Source of the DNA: Myxococcales bacterium
GTDB taxonomy: Bacteria > Myxococcota_A > Polyangia > Haliangiales > Haliangiaceae
Length of the DNA stretch: 39,953 bases
Assembly: GCA_016794525.1 (NCBI GenBank)
Contig: JAEUJY010000119.1
Span: 1 to 39,953 of the forward strand
Direction of reading: 5' to 3'
Part shown: positions 1,384 through 28,737 of the stretch, in pieces
Numbering within the stretch: position 1 is the stretch's first letter
Layout of the letters: the number at the start of each line of letters is the position of its first letter
Notes under the pieces: generated by a model
Seen by the model: the letters and a program-made list of their open reading frames with translations, nothing else
What the model was told of the DNA's origin: nothing
Databases searched by the model: none
Translations under genes and position numbers: made by a program

Positions 1384-2754
1384 ATGCACCGCCTCCGCCT
1401 CGCCAGCGCCCTGTGCGCGCTCGCCGCCTGCGACCAGGGCAGCAAGCCCGCCGCCGCGCCGCCGCCCCCGCCCGCCCTCGACGCCGCCCGCGCCCTCGCC
1501 CCCGCGCCCCCCGCCCCGGCCCCGCCCGCCGAGGCGATGCCCCCGGTCGCGTACCAGGGCGCGCCCGGCCCCGCCTACCTCGGCGTCGACGGCGCCGGCC
1601 TGTACCGCCTGGTCGACGGCACCGTCACCAAGCTGATCGGCCACAAGTACCCCATCAAGCAGATCGTCGTCGGCGCCGACGGCGCGGTGTTCGCGGTGGC
1701 GATCGGCGGCATGTGGAAGCTGGGCAAGGGCCCGCCCGAGCGCCTCGACAACAGCGGGCTGCGCTCGCTCGAGCGGATCGCGCTCGGCCCCGACGGCGTG
1801 CTGTGGGGCACCGATCGCCGCGGCGTCTTCCGCTGGGACGGCACCTGGACCGAGGAGCCGGCCAGCACGTTCGGCGGCGATCAGGAGCTCATCTACGACC
1901 TCGCGGTCGACCGCGACGGTCGGGTGTGGGTCATGCAGAGCGCCGCGCTGTGGCGGCTCGACGGCGATCACTGGAGCAAGCTCGACATCGGCTTCGCCGG
2001 CACCAGCCAGCCGTTCTTCTCGGCGCTGGCGATCCACCCCGACGGCACGGTCTACGTCGCCGGCACCCCCGGCACGTTCGCGTTCGCCAACGGGCGCTGG
2101 CGCAAGACCGGCCTGGCCGGCCGCTACGGCTCGCTCGACGAGCTCGCGGTCAGCCCCGCCGGCCACGTCGCCGGCTCCGGCGGGGTCGGCACGATCGCCG
2201 TGCAGGCGCCGGCCGGCGCGGTGCGCACGATCGAGCTCGACGACGGCCCGGCCCGCGCCCACCGCGGCGACGTGCTGGCGATCGACGGCGGCGGCCGCAC
2301 CTGGATCACCACCGACAACGGCCTGGTCATCCTCGATCGCGACGGCGCGCTGGCGCAGCAGTGGCTGCCCGGCACGGTCGCCGGCGTCACCGGCAAGCTC
2401 ACCGCCGCGGCCGTGGTCGGCGACGGCCCGGCGCTGCCCACGCTCACCGCCGCCGCCACCGGCACGATCGCCGGCAAGGTGCTGCGCGCCGGCAAGCCGG
2501 TGGGCGGCGCCGCGGTCGAGCTGTGCGACTCGCCGCTGACGATGTTCACCCGCACGCCGTGCGAGTCGTCGACCGCGTCGTTCCGCGCCACCACCGCCGC
2601 CGACGGCACCTTCGCGCTGCCCGGCGTGCCGGTCGGCACCTACGGCTTCGCGGTCAAGCCCGCCGCCCAGTGGATCATCCTGATCGGCGGCGACTGCTGC
2701 ACCGCGCTGACCGCCGGCGGCACGTACGACGTCGGCGCGATCACCCTCGATTGA
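1384..2754 (+). CDS. Predicted lipoprotein with beta-propeller-like body and C-terminal carboxypeptidase-regulatory-like domain
   Basis: Taken from the ATG at 1384 (456 residues), because this puts a lipoprotein signal peptide at the N-terminus: MHRLRLASALCALAAC with Cys16 as the likely lipidated residue. A longer in-frame reading from 1219 has no such signal. A Pro/Ala-rich linker (about residues 20-55) follows. The body has repeated short motifs of the kind GPDGVLWGTDRRGVF, DRDGRVWVMQSAALW and HPDGTVYVAGTPGTF, which resemble two-component-regulator-type or SMP-30-type propeller blades. The last 95 residues (GTIAGKVLRAGKPVGGAAVEL through TTAADGTFALPGVPVGTYGF) match a carboxypeptidase-regulatory-like (CarboxypepD_reg) beta-sandwich. 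It is probably a periplasmic or outer-membrane-anchored protein. The ligand is unknown, and no enzyme motif is visible. It is divergent from the kinase at 1-1247, so a shared control region around 1248-1383 is possible. Confidence 0.8.
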   Translation: MHRLRLASALCALAACDQGSKPAAAPPPPPALDAARALAPAPPAPAPPAEAMPPVAYQGAPGPAYLGVDGAGLYRLVDGTVTKLIGHKYPIKQIVVGADGAVFAVAIGGMWKLGKGPPERLDNSGLRSLERIALGPDGVLWGTDRRGVFRWDGTWTEEPASTFGGDQELIYDLAVDRDGRVWVMQSAALWRLDGDHWSKLDIGFAGTSQPFFSALAIHPDGTVYVAGTPGTFAFANGRWRKTGLAGRYGSLDELAVSPAGHVAGSGGVGTIAVQAPAGAVRTIELDDGPARAHRGDVLAIDGGGRTWITTDNGLVILDRDGALAQQWLPGTVAGVTGKLTAAAVVGDGPALPTLTAAATGTIAGKVLRAGKPVGGAAVELCDSPLTMFTRTPCESSTASFRATTAADGTFALPGVPVGTYGFAVKPAAQWIILIGGDCCTALTAGGTYDVGAITLD

Positions 2755-2757
2755 ACC

Positions 2758-2802
2758 GACCCCCTGGGAGGGGTTGTCGACAAGCCCTCCCCCGGCGGGG
2801 TC
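2758..2802 (+). terminator. Long inverted repeat just after the lipoprotein stop; terminator-like
   Basis: The stop codon ends at 2754. From 2758 the sequence folds as nested arms: GACCCC (2758-2763) with GGGGTC (2797-2802), GGGAGGG (2766-2772) with CCCTCCC (2785-2791), and a central TTGTC/GACAA (2774-2783). The position directly behind a stop suits transcription termination. No U-tract follows, so it is not a textbook intrinsic terminator. Confidence 0.5.
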
Positions 2803-2936
2803 GTGCCCCCGCCGGCCCCCGCCCGCTACGCGAAACCGGTGCGGGAATCGACACCGGCCTCGACGACCTCCACCGACCTGCGGCGTCCGCCGCCAGGCCA
2901 CGCCTTTGCTCGTCTCGCTTCGTGAAAGGAACGCCC

Positions 2937-3329
2937 ATGACCTCGACCGCGCTCACCACCACCGCCCCCGCCCCCATCGCCAAGAGCCACGGCGGCCTGA
3001 TCGCCGGCAAGCTCAACGTCCGCTTCGGCAAGGTCGAGCTGACCGCCAGCGAGCTGCGGGTGCTGACGATCAGCCGCGCCTACCAGATGTTCGGCCTGAT
3101 CGGCATGCTGCTCGGCCGCCGCGCCAAGGGCACGCTGGCGCTGACGATCGATCTGGGCCGGGTGCGCACCGTCGCCCGCGGCAAGTACGGCCTCAACAAG
3201 AAGATCCTCGATCTCACCGTCGAGGACGGCCAGACCCACCGGGTGATGGTCGAGGACTTCGATCGCTTCGGCGCCGCGCTGCGCGACCAGCTCGCGGCCC
3301 GCGGCACCGCCGCCTGGAACGTCGCCTGA
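2937..3329 (+). CDS. Small PH/GRAM-like domain protein of unknown function
   Basis: This 130-residue protein starts at an ATG preceded by AAAGGA (2925-2930, spacing 6), the best ribosome site in this stretch. It lies in a much longer open frame that begins at 315, but the upstream part is antisense to a kinase and a reading-frame shadow. The N-terminus is Thr/Ala/Pro-rich, with no signal peptide. Residues about 20-120 read KLNVRFGKVELTASELRVL, then LTIDLGRVRTVARGKYGLNKKILDLTVEDGQTHRVMV, then a helix FGAALRDQLAA. This pattern of short strands with a closing helix resembles bacterial PH or GRAM-type domains, which often bind lipids or proteins. That assignment is by eye only. It may be cytosolic. 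The ribosome site is nearly identical to that of the isocitrate dehydrogenase gene (AAAGGAACGC in both). Confidence 0.7.
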   Translation: MTSTALTTTAPAPIAKSHGGLIAGKLNVRFGKVELTASELRVLTISRAYQMFGLIGMLLGRRAKGTLALTIDLGRVRTVARGKYGLNKKILDLTVEDGQTHRVMVEDFDRFGAALRDQLAARGTAAWNVA

Positions 3330-3379
3330 GCCCTCGCAGGTCGCGTCGAACCGCCGGAGGCGGTCTCGAAGTCAACCTG

Positions 3380-3492
3380 CCCGTGCCCGTGCCCGTGCCC
3401 GATCCGGCCTCGCCTTCGTGTTCTTCCTCGAAGAAGAGCCGCAGCCCGCCGGGCACGGGCACGGGCACGGGCACGGGCACGGGCACGGGCAC
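3380..3492. repeat. Inverted hexanucleotide arrays (CCCGTG)3 and (GGGCAC)7 forming a long hairpin between convergent genes
   Basis: Three CCCGTG units (3380-3397), followed by CCCGAT, face seven GGGCAC units (3451-3492) in inverse complement orientation. Between them sits a small hairpin, TTCTTC (3421-3426) with GAAGAA (3430-3435) around a 3-base loop. The element fills most of the 175 bases between two convergent stops (3329 and 3505). A bidirectional terminator or mRNA 3'-end stabiliser is a reasonable inference. The unequal arm lengths imply copy number slips. The same hexamers occur at 15449-15534 and 27160-27177. Confidence 0.8.
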
Positions 3493-3504
3493 GGGGAGCC
3501 ACGC

Positions 3505-5517
3505 TCAGCGCACGACGTACGGCCGCGCCTGGACGATGTACAGCTGGTCGCCGACGAACAGCCACTCGATGTCGAGCGGGCTGTCGGGCGAGAACAAGCC
3601 CCAGATGTCGCGCGCGGCGCGGCCCAGCACCTCGGCCCGGGCCTGGGTGATCACCGGCTGGCCCTTCTTGGGGTTGGGCACCTCGCGCACGCCGCCCTGG
3701 CCGTCGAACACCAGCATCGTGTCCTCGTCGGAGCGCGACAGGATGCGCAGGCCGCGGTTGTGGACGTCGTAGAGCAGGCTCTCGGGCACCTTCTTGCCCT
3801 CGACGACGCGCAGCCCGAGCCCGCTCTTGGCGTTGATCGTGTAGGTGGTCTTCTGCGCCGGATCGGTCGGGTGCGCGGTGACCAGCACGCCGGCCGCGGT
3901 GGCGTTGACGCCGACCTGCACCAGCACCGCGCCGTAGACCTTGGTGTGGTCGATGCCGAACAGCTGCCGCTCCTCGTAGCCGCGCAGCGTCCACACGCTG
4001 GCCCACACGTCCTTGACCGCCTGCGCCACCGCGTCGATGCCCTTGGCGTTGGGGATCGTGTCGTAGAGCCCGGCGCCCGAGAACCCGGGCAGGTCCTCGG
4101 CGTTGGTCGAGCTGCGCACGAACACGCCGACCTTGGCGTCGCCGCCGGTCAGCTCGCCGAGGCGCTTGGCCAGGAGCGCGACGAACGCCGGATCGAGCGG
4201 CGCCGCGCTGATCGCCGCGCGCAGCTCGGCCAGCGCCTGCTTGCGGTAGCCGGCGTCCTTGCGGAAGCGCGCGTCGGCGAGCAGCGCCGCGATCTTCGCG
4301 TGCAGCCCGGCGGCCTCGAGGTGCGCGTCGTAGTACGCGATCGGCACGCCGAAGCCCGGCGGCACCTGGAAACCGGCCAGCTTGCCGTGGACGATCTCGC
4401 CGAGGTTCGACGCCTTGGTGCCGTAGGCGCTGGCGTCGACGGCGCGCAGCGCGTCGAGGCCGCGCAGGTCCTTGGCGCTCAGGTCGGCCGGCGGGATCTT
4501 GACCGTGCGCGCGGTCTGCACCCGGGCCTGCCACGCGGCGATCTCGTCGGGCGTGGCCTCGCGCAGCGTGTGGCCGCCGCCGGTGGCCTCGAACACGACG
4601 GTCTTGCCGACCAAGCCGGCGTAGGTGGTGGCGGCGCCGCGCAGCCCCACGTTGGGGATGCCCCAGGCCCGCGCGCGCAGGCTGACGTGGGCCAGCGGTG
4701 TCGAGAACGTCTCGGAGATGATGCCCGCGACCGGCGTGATGTCGGGCAGGCTCTCCGGGAGGATCACGATCTCGTCGGGCGCGAAGGTGAGGTCCTCGTA
4801 GGCCACGCCGGCCGGCACCAGCCGCAGCGGGCCGATGGCCTTGCCGGTGTTGAACGCCTGGTAGCTGGCCGCCTTGTACAGCTTGTCGTTGGTGATCACC
4901 GGGACGTCGGTGAGCTGGGTGGCGATCTGCTCCTGGTAGTCGGAGTCGGGGCGGTACTTGACCTGATCGCCCAGGTAGAACGTCGCCTTCATCTTCTGGT
5001 AGGCGCGCCGCACGTGCGCCGCCGAGGCCTTGTCGCCCTCCCAGAACGCCAGCGTCCACACGTCGGCGGCGAGGTGGTGGACCAGGTAGCACATCATGTA
5101 GTCGGGCTTCTGGTAGCCGTAGTTGCGGTCGACCTGCCGGTTGAGCTGCTTGGTCTTGGGCGTCTTGAGCAGCTCGCCGAAGATGAAGTCCTTGTGCACC
5201 TTGTAGACGTCGACGTCGAAGTAGTAGATGGCGTCGGTCTTGGTATCGAGGATGAACTTGGTGAAGCGCTCACCGCCGATCTCGACCGAGTACGCCATCA
5301 GCGTCGCCTCGTCCGGGATGTGATCGGTCCACAGCCGGCGCGGCGCCGGCGCCACCGCGGGCGCGCCGGCGTCGATCGGCGGCGGGGCCGCGTCGACCAC
5401 CGCGACCTGCGCCGCGTCGAGCGCGGGCGGCGGCGGCGGCGGCGGGGACGATGACTTGCTGGCGCAGGCCAGCCCGCACGACACGAGCACCAGGGTGGAC
5501 CAGACGAACCGCGCCAT
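3505..5517 (-). CDS. Lipoprotein with alpha-glucan-water-dikinase-like domain order (phosphohistidine domain, then PEP/pyruvate-binding domain)
   Basis: The product has 670 residues, starting at ATG 5517. The N-terminus MARFVWSTLVLVSCGLAC is a lipoprotein-type signal (Cys14 fits the lipobox LVSC, Cys18 is an alternative), followed by a Pro-rich linker. Residues about 60-220 are unassigned. A swivelling phosphohistidine domain follows, with PLAHVSLRARAWGIPN and His277 as the expected phosphate carrier. The last 300 residues form a PPDK/PEP-synthase-type nucleotide-binding domain: TKASNLGEI, VPPGFGVP, VFVRSSTNAEDLPGFSGAGL followed by YDTIPN, then VWASVWTLRGYEER and IEWLFVGDQLYIVQARPY. In PPDK and PEP synthase the ATP domain comes first. 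Here the His domain comes first, as in plant glucan water dikinases, and the motifs (SHVSVRAR-like, GLYDTIPN, VWASVW) are also closest to those from memory. The family moves the beta-phosphate of ATP to a glucan. An exported version would lack obvious ATP, which is odd. The substrate is not established. Confidence 0.82.
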   Translation of the reverse strand: MARFVWSTLVLVSCGLACASKSSSPPPPPPPALDAAQVAVVDAAPPPIDAGAPAVAPAPRRLWTDHIPDEATLMAYSVEIGGERFTKFILDTKTDAIYYFDVDVYKVHKDFIFGELLKTPKTKQLNRQVDRNYGYQKPDYMMCYLVHHLAADVWTLAFWEGDKASAAHVRRAYQKMKATFYLGDQVKYRPDSDYQEQIATQLTDVPVITNDKLYKAASYQAFNTGKAIGPLRLVPAGVAYEDLTFAPDEIVILPESLPDITPVAGIISETFSTPLAHVSLRARAWGIPNVGLRGAATTYAGLVGKTVVFEATGGGHTLREATPDEIAAWQARVQTARTVKIPPADLSAKDLRGLDALRAVDASAYGTKASNLGEIVHGKLAGFQVPPGFGVPIAYYDAHLEAAGLHAKIAALLADARFRKDAGYRKQALAELRAAISAAPLDPAFVALLAKRLGELTGGDAKVGVFVRSSTNAEDLPGFSGAGLYDTIPNAKGIDAVAQAVKDVWASVWTLRGYEERQLFGIDHTKVYGAVLVQVGVNATAAGVLVTAHPTDPAQKTTYTINAKSGLGLRVVEGKKVPESLLYDVHNRGLRILSRSDEDTMLVFDGQGGVREVPNPKKGQPVITQARAEVLGRAARDIWGLFSPDSPLDIEWLFVGDQLYIVQARPYVVR

Positions 5518-5572: not shown

Positions 5573-5629
5573 GCGGTGCACGGCGGCGCGATCCGGCCGA
5601 ACCACCGAGAGCCCATCCCGGAGGATCTC

Positions 5630-8797
<3,168 letters not shown>

Positions 8798-15415: not shown

Positions 15416-15448
15416 TCGCCTGATCACCGGGCCGCCCCGGGCCCCATG

Positions 15449-15534
15449 CCCGTGCCCGTGCCCGTGCCCGTGCCCGATCCGGTCTCCGATCCGGATCCCG
15501 ATCCGGATCCCGATCCCGATCCCGCTCCCAACGG
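15449..15534. repeat. Hexamer arrays: (CCCGTG)4 followed by CCSGAT-type units
   Basis: Four CCCGTG units (15449-15472) are followed by about ten CCCGAT/CCGGAT-type units (15473-15534), some degenerate. The array fills the gap between the convergent malate dehydrogenase and histidine kinase genes. Unlike the element at 3380-3492, it has no long inverted arm. The CCCGAT unit also ends the left arm of that first array, which suggests a related origin. Confidence 0.8.
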
Positions 15535-27042: not shown

Positions 27043-27159
27043 GGCGGCGCCGATGAGCAGGCCCGGTGCCAGGCGCGGACGCTCGCGATTCCGGAGGGTT
27101 GCGCAGGAGATCGGGGTGCCACTGCCATCGGTGGCTGCCATCGATGACACGCGGGTAGC

Positions 27160-27223
27160 GGGCACGGGCACGGGCACGGGGCAGGTCGCCGCGAAGCGCC
27201 GCAGGCGCGTCGCGGCACCCTGC
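27160..27223 (-). terminator. Nested hairpin plus (GGGCAC)3 behind the Ser/Thr kinase stop
   Basis: Right after the kinase stop (27223-27225) the sequence folds as GCAGG (27181-27185) with CCTGC (27219-27223), GCCGCGA (27188-27194) with TCGCGGC (27210-27216), and GCGCC (27196-27200) with GGCGC (27204-27208) around a GCA loop. Three GGGCAC units (27160-27177) follow in the direction of transcription. A terminator is the likely role; there is no U-tract. Confidence 0.55.
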
Positions 27224-28737
27224 TAGAAGCTGTCGAGGTACAGCCGGCCGCCGGCGATCACCATCTTCATGGTCTCGGTGTGGCCGCCGTCGAACCGGAA
27301 GTCGACCTCGGCCCCGTCCCAGCCGCGCCGCACCGCGAGCACCTGCGCGTCGCGGAACATCTCGCGGAACGCCGGGAACCGCGGGCTGGTCTCGGTCAGC
27401 TCGCACAGCTCGCGGACGTCGCGATCGCCGCGCCCGGGCTGGCACAGATCGGCCAGCTCGCTGGCGTCGCCCGAGCGGGCGGCGTCGACCAAGGTCGCGA
27501 TCAGCTGCGCCGGATCGGTGTACGAGCCGTGGCCGCGGCGGCGCACGACCTGCGAGCCGACGACCGCGCCGATCGCCAGGATCGCGACGCCGCCGCCCAG
27601 CCAGCTCCAGCGCAGGCCGCCGCGCGGCACCGGCGGCGGGGCCGGCAGCGCCACCACGGTGGCCGGCGTCGGGCCGACCGGCGGGGCCGCCGGCGCCGGC
27701 AGCGCGGTCGCCAGCGCCGCCGCCAGCCCGGGGTGATCGGGGCGGTACGCGAGGCCGCGATCGATCGCGCGCATCGCCGCGAACGCGTCGCCGCGCGCGC
27801 TGGCGTCGGCGGCCAGCGCCACCGCGCGATCGGCCTCGCGCGCCGCGACCTCGGCCTGCCACGCCGCGCGATCGCCGACGATCCGCCGCGCCACCGTCGC
27901 CGGCGGCGCGCCCGCGGTGGCCGCCTCGACCCACGGCGCCAGCGCCGCGACGACCGCCGCCGCGTCGGCCGGGCGCGCCGCGCGATCGCGCGCCAGCAGG
28001 CGATCGACCAGCGCCGCCAGCCCGGGCGCGACCCGGCGATCCAGCTCGTCGATGGGCGCCCGCGCGCCGGCGAGGATCGCCGCGACCTCCTCGGGCGCGC
28101 GCGCGCGACCGAACGGCCGCTGGCCGCAGGTCAGCTCGTACAGCATCACGCCCAGCGCCCAGACGTCGCTGGCCGGGCTCACCTCGCCCTCGATCTGCTC
28201 CGGCGCCAGGTACGGCACCGAGCCCGCGACCGCGCCCTCGTGGGTCTGGCGGGTCCACGCCGCGTCGAGCGCCAGCCCCAGATCGATCACCACCACCTGC
28301 CCGGTCGCGGTCAGGATCGCGTTGTCTGGCTTGAGGTCGCGGTGGACCAGCCCGACCGCGTGCAGCGCCGCCGCGCCCGCGGCGACGCCGGCGACCAGCA
28401 CCACCGCCGCCTCGGGGCCGAGGCCGCCGTCGGCGAGCAGCGCCCGCAGGCTCACGCCCTCGAGCCGCGGCATCACGACGTAGGTCAGCTCGGCGGTGAC
28501 GCCGCCGTCGACGATCCGCACGACGCTCGGGTGCTCGAGGCGGATCATCGCCGCCAGCTCGCGCTCGGCGCGGGCCCGCGCGGTCGGATCGCCGGCGTGC
28601 GGGATGACCTTGATCGCCAGCGCCTGGCCGCCAGCGCCGCGGGTCGCGTAGACCGCCCCGCCGCCGCCCGCGCCGAGCACGTCGCCCAGCACGTAGCCGG
28701 CGATCACCGAGCCGATCGGCGCGAGGGTCGGGAGCAC
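27223..28737 (-). CDS. Membrane-anchored Hanks-type Ser/Thr protein kinase
   Basis: The product has 504 residues from GTG 28737, seven bases after the stop of the VIT transporter gene. Glycine loop LGAGGGGAVY (residues 21-30), Lys43 (LAIKV), HRDLKPDN with His132, IDLGLAL (DLG in place of DFG) and YLAPEQIEG are all present, so it looks catalytically competent if DLG is tolerated. A helical segment with ARGDAFAAMRAIDRGLAYRP follows, then a Pro-rich linker and one membrane span (WSWLGGGVAILAIGAVVG, about residues 375-395). The last 110 residues lie outside the membrane and contain two Cys in LADLCQP and RELCEL; they may sense something. The kinase at 1-1247 is a paralog with the same order. Coupling to a metal transporter suggests a link to metal or envelope status (inference). 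Confidence 0.92.
   Translation of the reverse strand: MLPTLAPIGSVIAGYVLGDVLGAGGGGAVYATRGAGGQALAIKVIPHAGDPTARARAERELAAMIRLEHPSVVRIVDGGVTAELTYVVMPRLEGVSLRALLADGGLGPEAAVVLVAGVAAGAAALHAVGLVHRDLKPDNAILTATGQVVVIDLGLALDAAWTRQTHEGAVAGSVPYLAPEQIEGEVSPASDVWALGVMLYELTCGQRPFGRARAPEEVAAILAGARAPIDELDRRVAPGLAALVDRLLARDRAARPADAAAVVAALAPWVEAATAGAPPATVARRIVGDRAAWQAEVAAREADRAVALAADASARGDAFAAMRAIDRGLAYRPDHPGLAAALATALPAPAAPPVGPTPATVVALPAPPPVPRGGLRWSWLGGGVAILAIGAVVGSQVVRRRGHGSYTDPAQLIATLVDAARSGDASELADLCQPGRGDRDVRELCELTETSPRFPAFREMFRDAQVLAVRRGWDGAEVDFRFDGGHTETMKMVIAGGRLYLDSF

Follow-up and report, generated by a model that had tools for sequence, protein, structure and literature searches.

A hexamer-armed hairpin between convergent genes of a Myxococcales genome, a likely decayed copy of an IS5-related, MITE-like element

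Introduction

Lineage-specific short tandem units scattered in intergenic spacers are known from cyanobacteria in the form of the STRR repeats, for which, to our knowledge, no link to the ends of insertion sequences has been reported. In the part of a recent survey of short tandem repeats that is used here, such repeats are described as fewer than expected in bacteria, with hexamers found more often in coding sequence (PMC12699852). Mobile elements that contain tandem repeats have also been described: BrickBuilt, a MITE of Porphyromonas gingivalis, is present in multiple intergenic copies and, according to the sections of its description drawn on here, combines internal tandem repeats with terminal repeats resembling those of the IS5 family (PMC4596501). 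For IS5 of E. coli, the portion of the published data considered here gives a duplicated PyTAPu target, most often CTAG (15 of the 24 listed sites; PMC5493358).

Here, we describe a large hairpin with hexamer arms in a 39,953-nt stretch of DNA (hereafter "the window") belonging to a Myxococcales bacterium, whose genome is available as a 9.8-Mb assembly of 177 contigs. Our literature search, which covered titles and the beginnings of abstracts and few subscription journals, found no description of the element presented here. Based on sequence comparison, the feature (approximately 3337-3499) is likely a decayed copy of a MITE-like element that is non-autonomous and akin to IS5-type insertion sequences, and its hairpin most likely arises from the build of the element and its insertion site, rather than being a purpose-made transcription stop.

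Results

Structure of the feature and its neighbourhood

The feature is located, as an earlier note based on the letters of the window had proposed, between two genes that face each other. Gene ends, here and throughout, were obtained with a purpose-made codon-usage gene finder and not from standard annotation. The locus is composed as follows:

2937-3329, plus strand: upstream neighbour, 130 aa, no family match
3333-3336, no strand: left outer border, CTCG where several sister copies have CTAG
3336-3380, plus strand: left terminal hairpin, GCAGGT...ACCTGC, which shares its last bases with the left arm
3378-3401, plus strand: left arm, (CCCGTG)n, 4.0 copies (TGCCCG x 4.0), three complete CCCGTG units
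3402-3449, plus strand: core, 48 nt, containing a TTCTTC/GAAGAA hairpin
3450-3495, minus strand: right arm, (CCCGTG)n, 7.7 copies (CGGGCA x 7.7), seven complete GGGCAC units
3493-3499, minus strand: GGGGAGC, the rightmost piece common to the window and contigs C51, C132 and C165
3505-5517, minus strand: downstream neighbour, 670 aa, PEP synthase-like (PPDK_N PF01326, E 1.1e-51)

The two arms, read directly from the sequence, form a perfect 24-nt inverted repeat with 100% pairing in four registers, and counting their complete units gave the same three CCCGTG and seven GGGCAC, in inverse orientation, as the earlier note. The second hairpin that it had seen between the arms, TTCTTC-CTC-GAAGAA, was located at 3421-3435, inside the core. 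The interval it had assigned, 3380-3492, contains a real feature, but is slightly shorter than the arms (3378-3495) and misses the left terminal hairpin. The latter has an RNAfold energy of -24.2 kcal/mol, and 39 of 45 columns aligned with the hairpin of C165. The right hairpin, present in C132, C109, and C82, is missing from the window copy; this loss, together with the CTCG found instead of CTAG, is the reason why we describe the copy as decayed. The CTCG at 3333-3336 is presumed to be a mutated target duplication. With a length of about 163 nt and a 48-nt core, the window copy has no room for a transposase.

A long stem had been predicted in RNA from either strand, and the folds of 3370-3500 bore this out: the energy was -90.1 kcal/mol on the plus strand (z -6.3) and -92.2 kcal/mol on the minus strand (z -6.7), and none of the 200 shuffles equalled either value. 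In a search of 2700-4000 against Rfam, nothing reached the gathering score; the best match, to mir-885 (30.8 bits versus a cut-off of 66), was sub-threshold and miRNA-like, and was rejected as a chance match to the stem.

The downstream gene places a Kofleriaceae MAG closest among named relatives, with 79% identity at the protein level. The closest orthologues came from seven relatives, including G004, in which the contig stops 39 nt downstream. At the orthologous locus, no hexamer array was detected within the DNA read in G001, G002, G003, G005, and G011, and G006 exhibited a different array, (CTCGGT)n, directly after the stop codon (L027:8020-8106, 3' of the orthologue of 3505-5517). CTCCGT/CTCCGG arrays were observed at this locus in the more distant G009. 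Conservation of the inverted layout in relatives, which the earlier note had made a test of its reading, was found in the sense that the layout recurs, but the loci that carry it are different from the orthologous one.

Other repeats were observed near the feature. A recurring palindromic spacer sequence, GAGGGTTTnnCGAnAAACCCTC-like, is located at about 2757-2810 beside a CCCCCGGC-rich hairpin, and similar pieces occur in spacers of C41 and C47, beside some arrays. At 6582-8676, repeats of roughly 129 and 120 nt lie in tandem inside the ORF 5576-8797 and encode Cys-rich/Asp-rich repeats.

Sister copies in the source genome

The word (CCCGTG)x3 yielded 190 forward and 184 reverse matches in the source genome, for which a backward control was uninformative because reversing this word gives the same cyclic repeat. 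It was present in 26 of the 56 genomes searched, source included, with 2 to 418 matches in each of the six other members of the source genus. A left hairpin together with inward-facing CCCGTG arms was found at six loci (the window, C51, C82, C109, C132, and C165), and a hairpin with a single arm at four more (C1 at 27.2 kb, C3, C7, and C38). The C1 half copy lies within the window:

27159-27216, minus strand: TAG stop of the predicted gene 27223-28737, hairpin, and 3.7 CCCGTG units

These ten loci, which have unrelated flanks, form a dispersed family; they were found in 1.92 Mb that includes five contigs (C51, C82, C109, C132, and C165) chosen for a match to the hairpin tail. The common plan is a hairpin of some 45 nt followed by a CCCGTG arm, the core and an arm in inverse orientation; some copies add a second hairpin. 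The best-kept copies read, from one border to the other, CTAG, a hairpin end (CAGGTTGCTGAGAAACGCC...), (CCCGTG)n, a short core, (GGGCAC)n, a hairpin end, and CTAG.

The window core was identical to those of C51, C132, and C165 at 34, 37, and 36 of 48 positions, respectively (best of 2000 shuffles, 23); the cores of C82 and C109 differ from it. A change in arm length, which the earlier note had read from the unequal arms, is also seen against the five two-arm sister copies: their left arms measured 33-36 nt and their right arms 19-36 nt, versus 24 and 46 nt in the window. The hairpin tail, GAAGTCAACCTGC, had eight exact occurrences genome-wide (control, 0), all eight of which adjoin CCCGTG arrays, and the arm-core junction, GTGCCCGATCCGGYCTCG, was found 11 times (5 exact and 6 with one mismatch; control, 0). 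Moreover, the lengths of the source CCCGTG arrays cluster, with 16 out of 47 measuring 33-34 nt, and ATC directly follows 18 out of 44; this suggests that many CCCGTG arrays may be copies of one module.

The hairpin consensus (score of at least 14) was searched for in the 70-nt flanks of the arrays. It was present in the outer flank of 11 out of the 44 CCCGTG arrays of the source genome, a fraction that, like array densities, is biased upwards because the statistics cover 1.92 of 9.8 Mb and many contigs were picked for CCCGTG matches; and in that of 10 out of the 13 arrays of G010, sampled as contigs with CCCGTG matches. None of the 57 inner flanks contained it (0/44 and 0/13, respectively) and, at other hexamer arrays, none of 227 outer flanks and one of 228 inner flanks had it. 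As the consensus was built from source copies, only the G010 result is independent, and the random-spacer null of this search included some of the elements themselves. Among the source arrays that had no sequence match, a strong outer hairpin (z < -3) was observed in 5 out of 29, and one on the inner side in 3 out of 40; the corresponding proportion was 2.1% of 385 random spacer pieces.

Two further CCCGTG observations deserve description. At 15447-15524 of the window, between convergent genes, a CCCGTG array runs into CCCGATCCGG/CCCGAT repeats; its inner junction is as in the element, and no outer hairpin match was found. In C37 (29976-30061 and 32008-32122), CCCGTG arrays resemble coding Gly-Thr linkers after lipoprotein-type signal peptides, when read on the minus strand.

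Borders of the element and relation to IS5-type transposases

The border position was occupied by CTAG in C132, C165, C38, and C3, by CTCG in the window and C82, and by GTCG in C109. CTAG was observed on both sides in three of the five two-hairpin copies (C132, G010 C13, and G010 L200), which read CTAG-CAGG...CCTG-CTAG; in C82 and C109, the other two, CTAG does not flank the copy on both sides. Terminal inverted repeats were likewise found in C132, L200, and G010 C13, and the window copy has the left end alone. CTAG was at the border of 17 out of the 27 arrays that have an outer hairpin, and the border TAG was the stop codon of a predicted gene in 17 (7/17 in the source genome and 10/10 in G010). 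In all ten hairpin-bearing arrays of G010, the hairpin starts at the TAG stop or no more than 3 nt from it, a position that would suit insertion into CTAG.

CTAG is present at a density of only 0.15-0.31 per kb, and 105 of its 287 occurrences in the source sample and 34 of 94 in G010 are TAG stops, the borders of the elements themselves being included in these counts. CTAG could also be part of the element end, rather than a duplication. In one test, an empty site was searched for in 15 further genomes from the genus of G010, with no match across the junction; where both halves matched, they were on different contigs.

The best sister copies start with CAGGTTGCTGAGAAAC, which in C132, C165, and others directly follows CTAG. 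This start is identical, at 15 out of 16 bases, to the end of an IS5-type element in G026, a genome of another genus; the window end agrees with it at 10 out of 16. At the left end of the G026 element, CTAG is followed by CAGGCTGCTGAGAAAC; the element encodes an open 361-aa IS5-type transposase (NF033581, 260.8 bits; cut-off, 140). In G017, TTAG and CAGGTCGTTGAAAAAC precede another NF033581 transposase (263.1 bits). No hexamer array was found in these two transposase stretches (L198 and L199); the right ends of the two elements lie beyond the DNA read.

In G010, which belongs to the same genus as G026, L200 and L193 (5942-6300) enclose remnants of an IS5-type DDE transposase (NF033581, 1.5e-30, below cut-off; PF01609, 1.4e-13), and these remnants lie between hairpins and arms like those of the element. 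A search for a transposase relative in the source genome found none; it may have been lost or may be unassembled. The end including CTAG, with one mismatch, was detected in 9 of 56 genomes, with 123 matches in G010 and 9 in the source genome (backward control, at most one per genome). Among the matches listed, many of those in G010 have the form CTGAAAA, which is probably another element of like type.

Hexamer satellites in the wider group

In G006 (L157-L176, 0.4 Mb, a sample chosen regardless of hexamers), we observed that 13 of the 17 convergent spacers of 60-500 nt are mostly (CTCGGT)n-type satellite, which extends close to both stops. By the looser measure used there (lag-6 match of at least 0.7), 0 of the 44 divergent spacers of G006 and 3 of the 50 convergent spacers of the source genome were positive. 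Hexamers predominated among perfect tandem spacer arrays of at least 24 nt (65/73 in the source genome, 35/39 in G006, and 11/11 in G010), in a census of unit lengths 4-15 that left out units of 1-3, and no 4-, 5-, or 7-mers were found in these three genomes. The leading units were CCCGTG, CTCCGG, and CCCGAT in the source genome, CTCGGT in G006, and CCCGTG in G010; (CTCGGT)x3 had 2509 matches in G006 and 30 at most in each of the 55 other genomes searched. Among spacers of 60-500 nt, perfect arrays were present in 6 of 17 convergent and 0 of 44 divergent spacers in G006, and in 6 of 22 and 0 of 49, respectively, in G010. CCCGTG arrays are spread more widely than the element, since 33 of the 44 in the source genome have no matching hairpin and the element end is absent, at one mismatch, from the CCCGTG-rich relatives G005, G001, and G009.

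In a broader reading, which we consider unlikely, species-specific six-base satellites would fill the convergent spacers of Kofleriaceae as putative transcription barriers acting in either orientation, and the window element would be their transposable form. The satellites themselves pose the question of why the units are nearly always six bases long, why they differ between species, and why they occupy convergent spacers.

Alternative origins of the hairpin

The earlier note had suggested a terminator, an RNA stability element or a protein-binding array; as primary identity, these give way to a dispersed family built of hairpin, arm and core. We regard as quite unlikely a selected bidirectional terminator or 3'-end RNA stabiliser, whose stem would pause RNA polymerase or block exonucleases. 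It would explain the very stable folds of both strands of 3370-3500, as well as the distribution of perfect hexamer arrays (24 nt or longer) among source spacers of 60-500 nt (13/50 convergent, 3/234 divergent, and 20/369 tandem spacers). However, neither strand has a T tract following the stem, and a search for terminator-like sites gave no match at the feature. The G010 hairpins, moreover, begin so close to the TAG stop that their start presumably falls inside the ribosome footprint; the ends and core common to several loci fit a mobile element, and a convergent location is equally expected where insertions are tolerated. Some terminator function of the window feature is possible, although nothing in these results supports it.

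Rho utilisation via sense C-rich hexamers 3' of genes was considered separately and found no support as a general rule: in tandem spacers, the pyrimidine-rich strand was sense versus antisense in 7 versus 13 cases in the source genome, 3 versus 5 in G006, and 2 versus 1 in G010.

Local microsatellite expansion, with hexamers slipping on either side of a palindrome and no transposition, is very unlikely to be the whole origin of the feature. The pure units and unequal arms are what it would produce, in a genome where hexamer arrays are common in spacers and most CCCGTG arrays have no matching hairpin. Slippage, however, does not yield inverted partners, a shared core, and shared outer hairpins at several loci. 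Among the oppositely oriented neighbouring CCCGTG pairs, 10 out of 11 point inwards, and the one that points outwards, in C165, possibly links two distinct copies; in the source genome, another four pairs of neighbouring CCCGTG arrays share one orientation. Neighbouring arrays of other units are in one orientation only (27 out of 27 CTCGGT pairs and 13 out of 13 CTCCGG pairs), which also argues against slippage as the source of the inverted layout. RAYT-mobilised palindromes of the REP/BIME type with hexamer repeats added are highly improbable: they too are short intergenic hairpins, often single or in inverted pairs, but the end sequence resembles an IS5-type DDE element and the remnants enclosed in G010 are DDE.

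Discussion

An odd hairpin between two genes can now be viewed as a recognisable copy of a mobile element. Because the hairpin end, arms and core recur together in a dispersed family, the inverted layout appears to have been inherited from that element. In the decayed MITE-like copy that we propose, an IS5-type transposase supplied in trans would have moved the element into CTAG targets, and tolerated insertions would lie at the ends of genes and in convergent spacers. CTAG is rare and about one third of its occurrences are TAG stops, so surviving insertions would be expected in these positions. After insertion, the hexamer arms would have changed by slippage and palindromic ends would have been lost, including the right hairpin of the window copy. 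The GC-rich RNA stem would result from the arms being inverted, with a possible incidental effect on the convergent transcripts. The proposed history suggests that a scarce target that can also serve as a stop codon may concentrate surviving insertions at the ends of genes.

The arrays of the source genome share with cyanobacterial STRR repeats their short, lineage-specific tandem units, and differ from them in being hexamers and not heptamers. The host of BrickBuilt, P. gingivalis, has a much lower GC content. BrickBuilt is the closer parallel, and the present element would join it as a further IS5-like MITE with built-in tandem repeats. The two are alike in the traits outlined above and in their mostly decayed ends, with both ends intact in 4 of the 19 BrickBuilt copies in the part of the account used here; unlike the window element, with its two inverted hexamer arms, BrickBuilt has one 23-nt repeat block between a leader and a tail, and the term "stop codon" is absent from its main text (PMC4596501). 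In comparison with the IS5 family (NF033581 transpos_IS5_4/PF01609), the window copy differs by having no transposase, and the G026 and G017 elements differ by having no hexamer arms in the DNA read. The likeness to this family lies in the target, since CTAG is the main one of E. coli IS5 in the data considered (PMC5493358), and in the ends, with CAGGnTGCTGAGAAAC and a YTAG border common to the sister copies and the G026 element.
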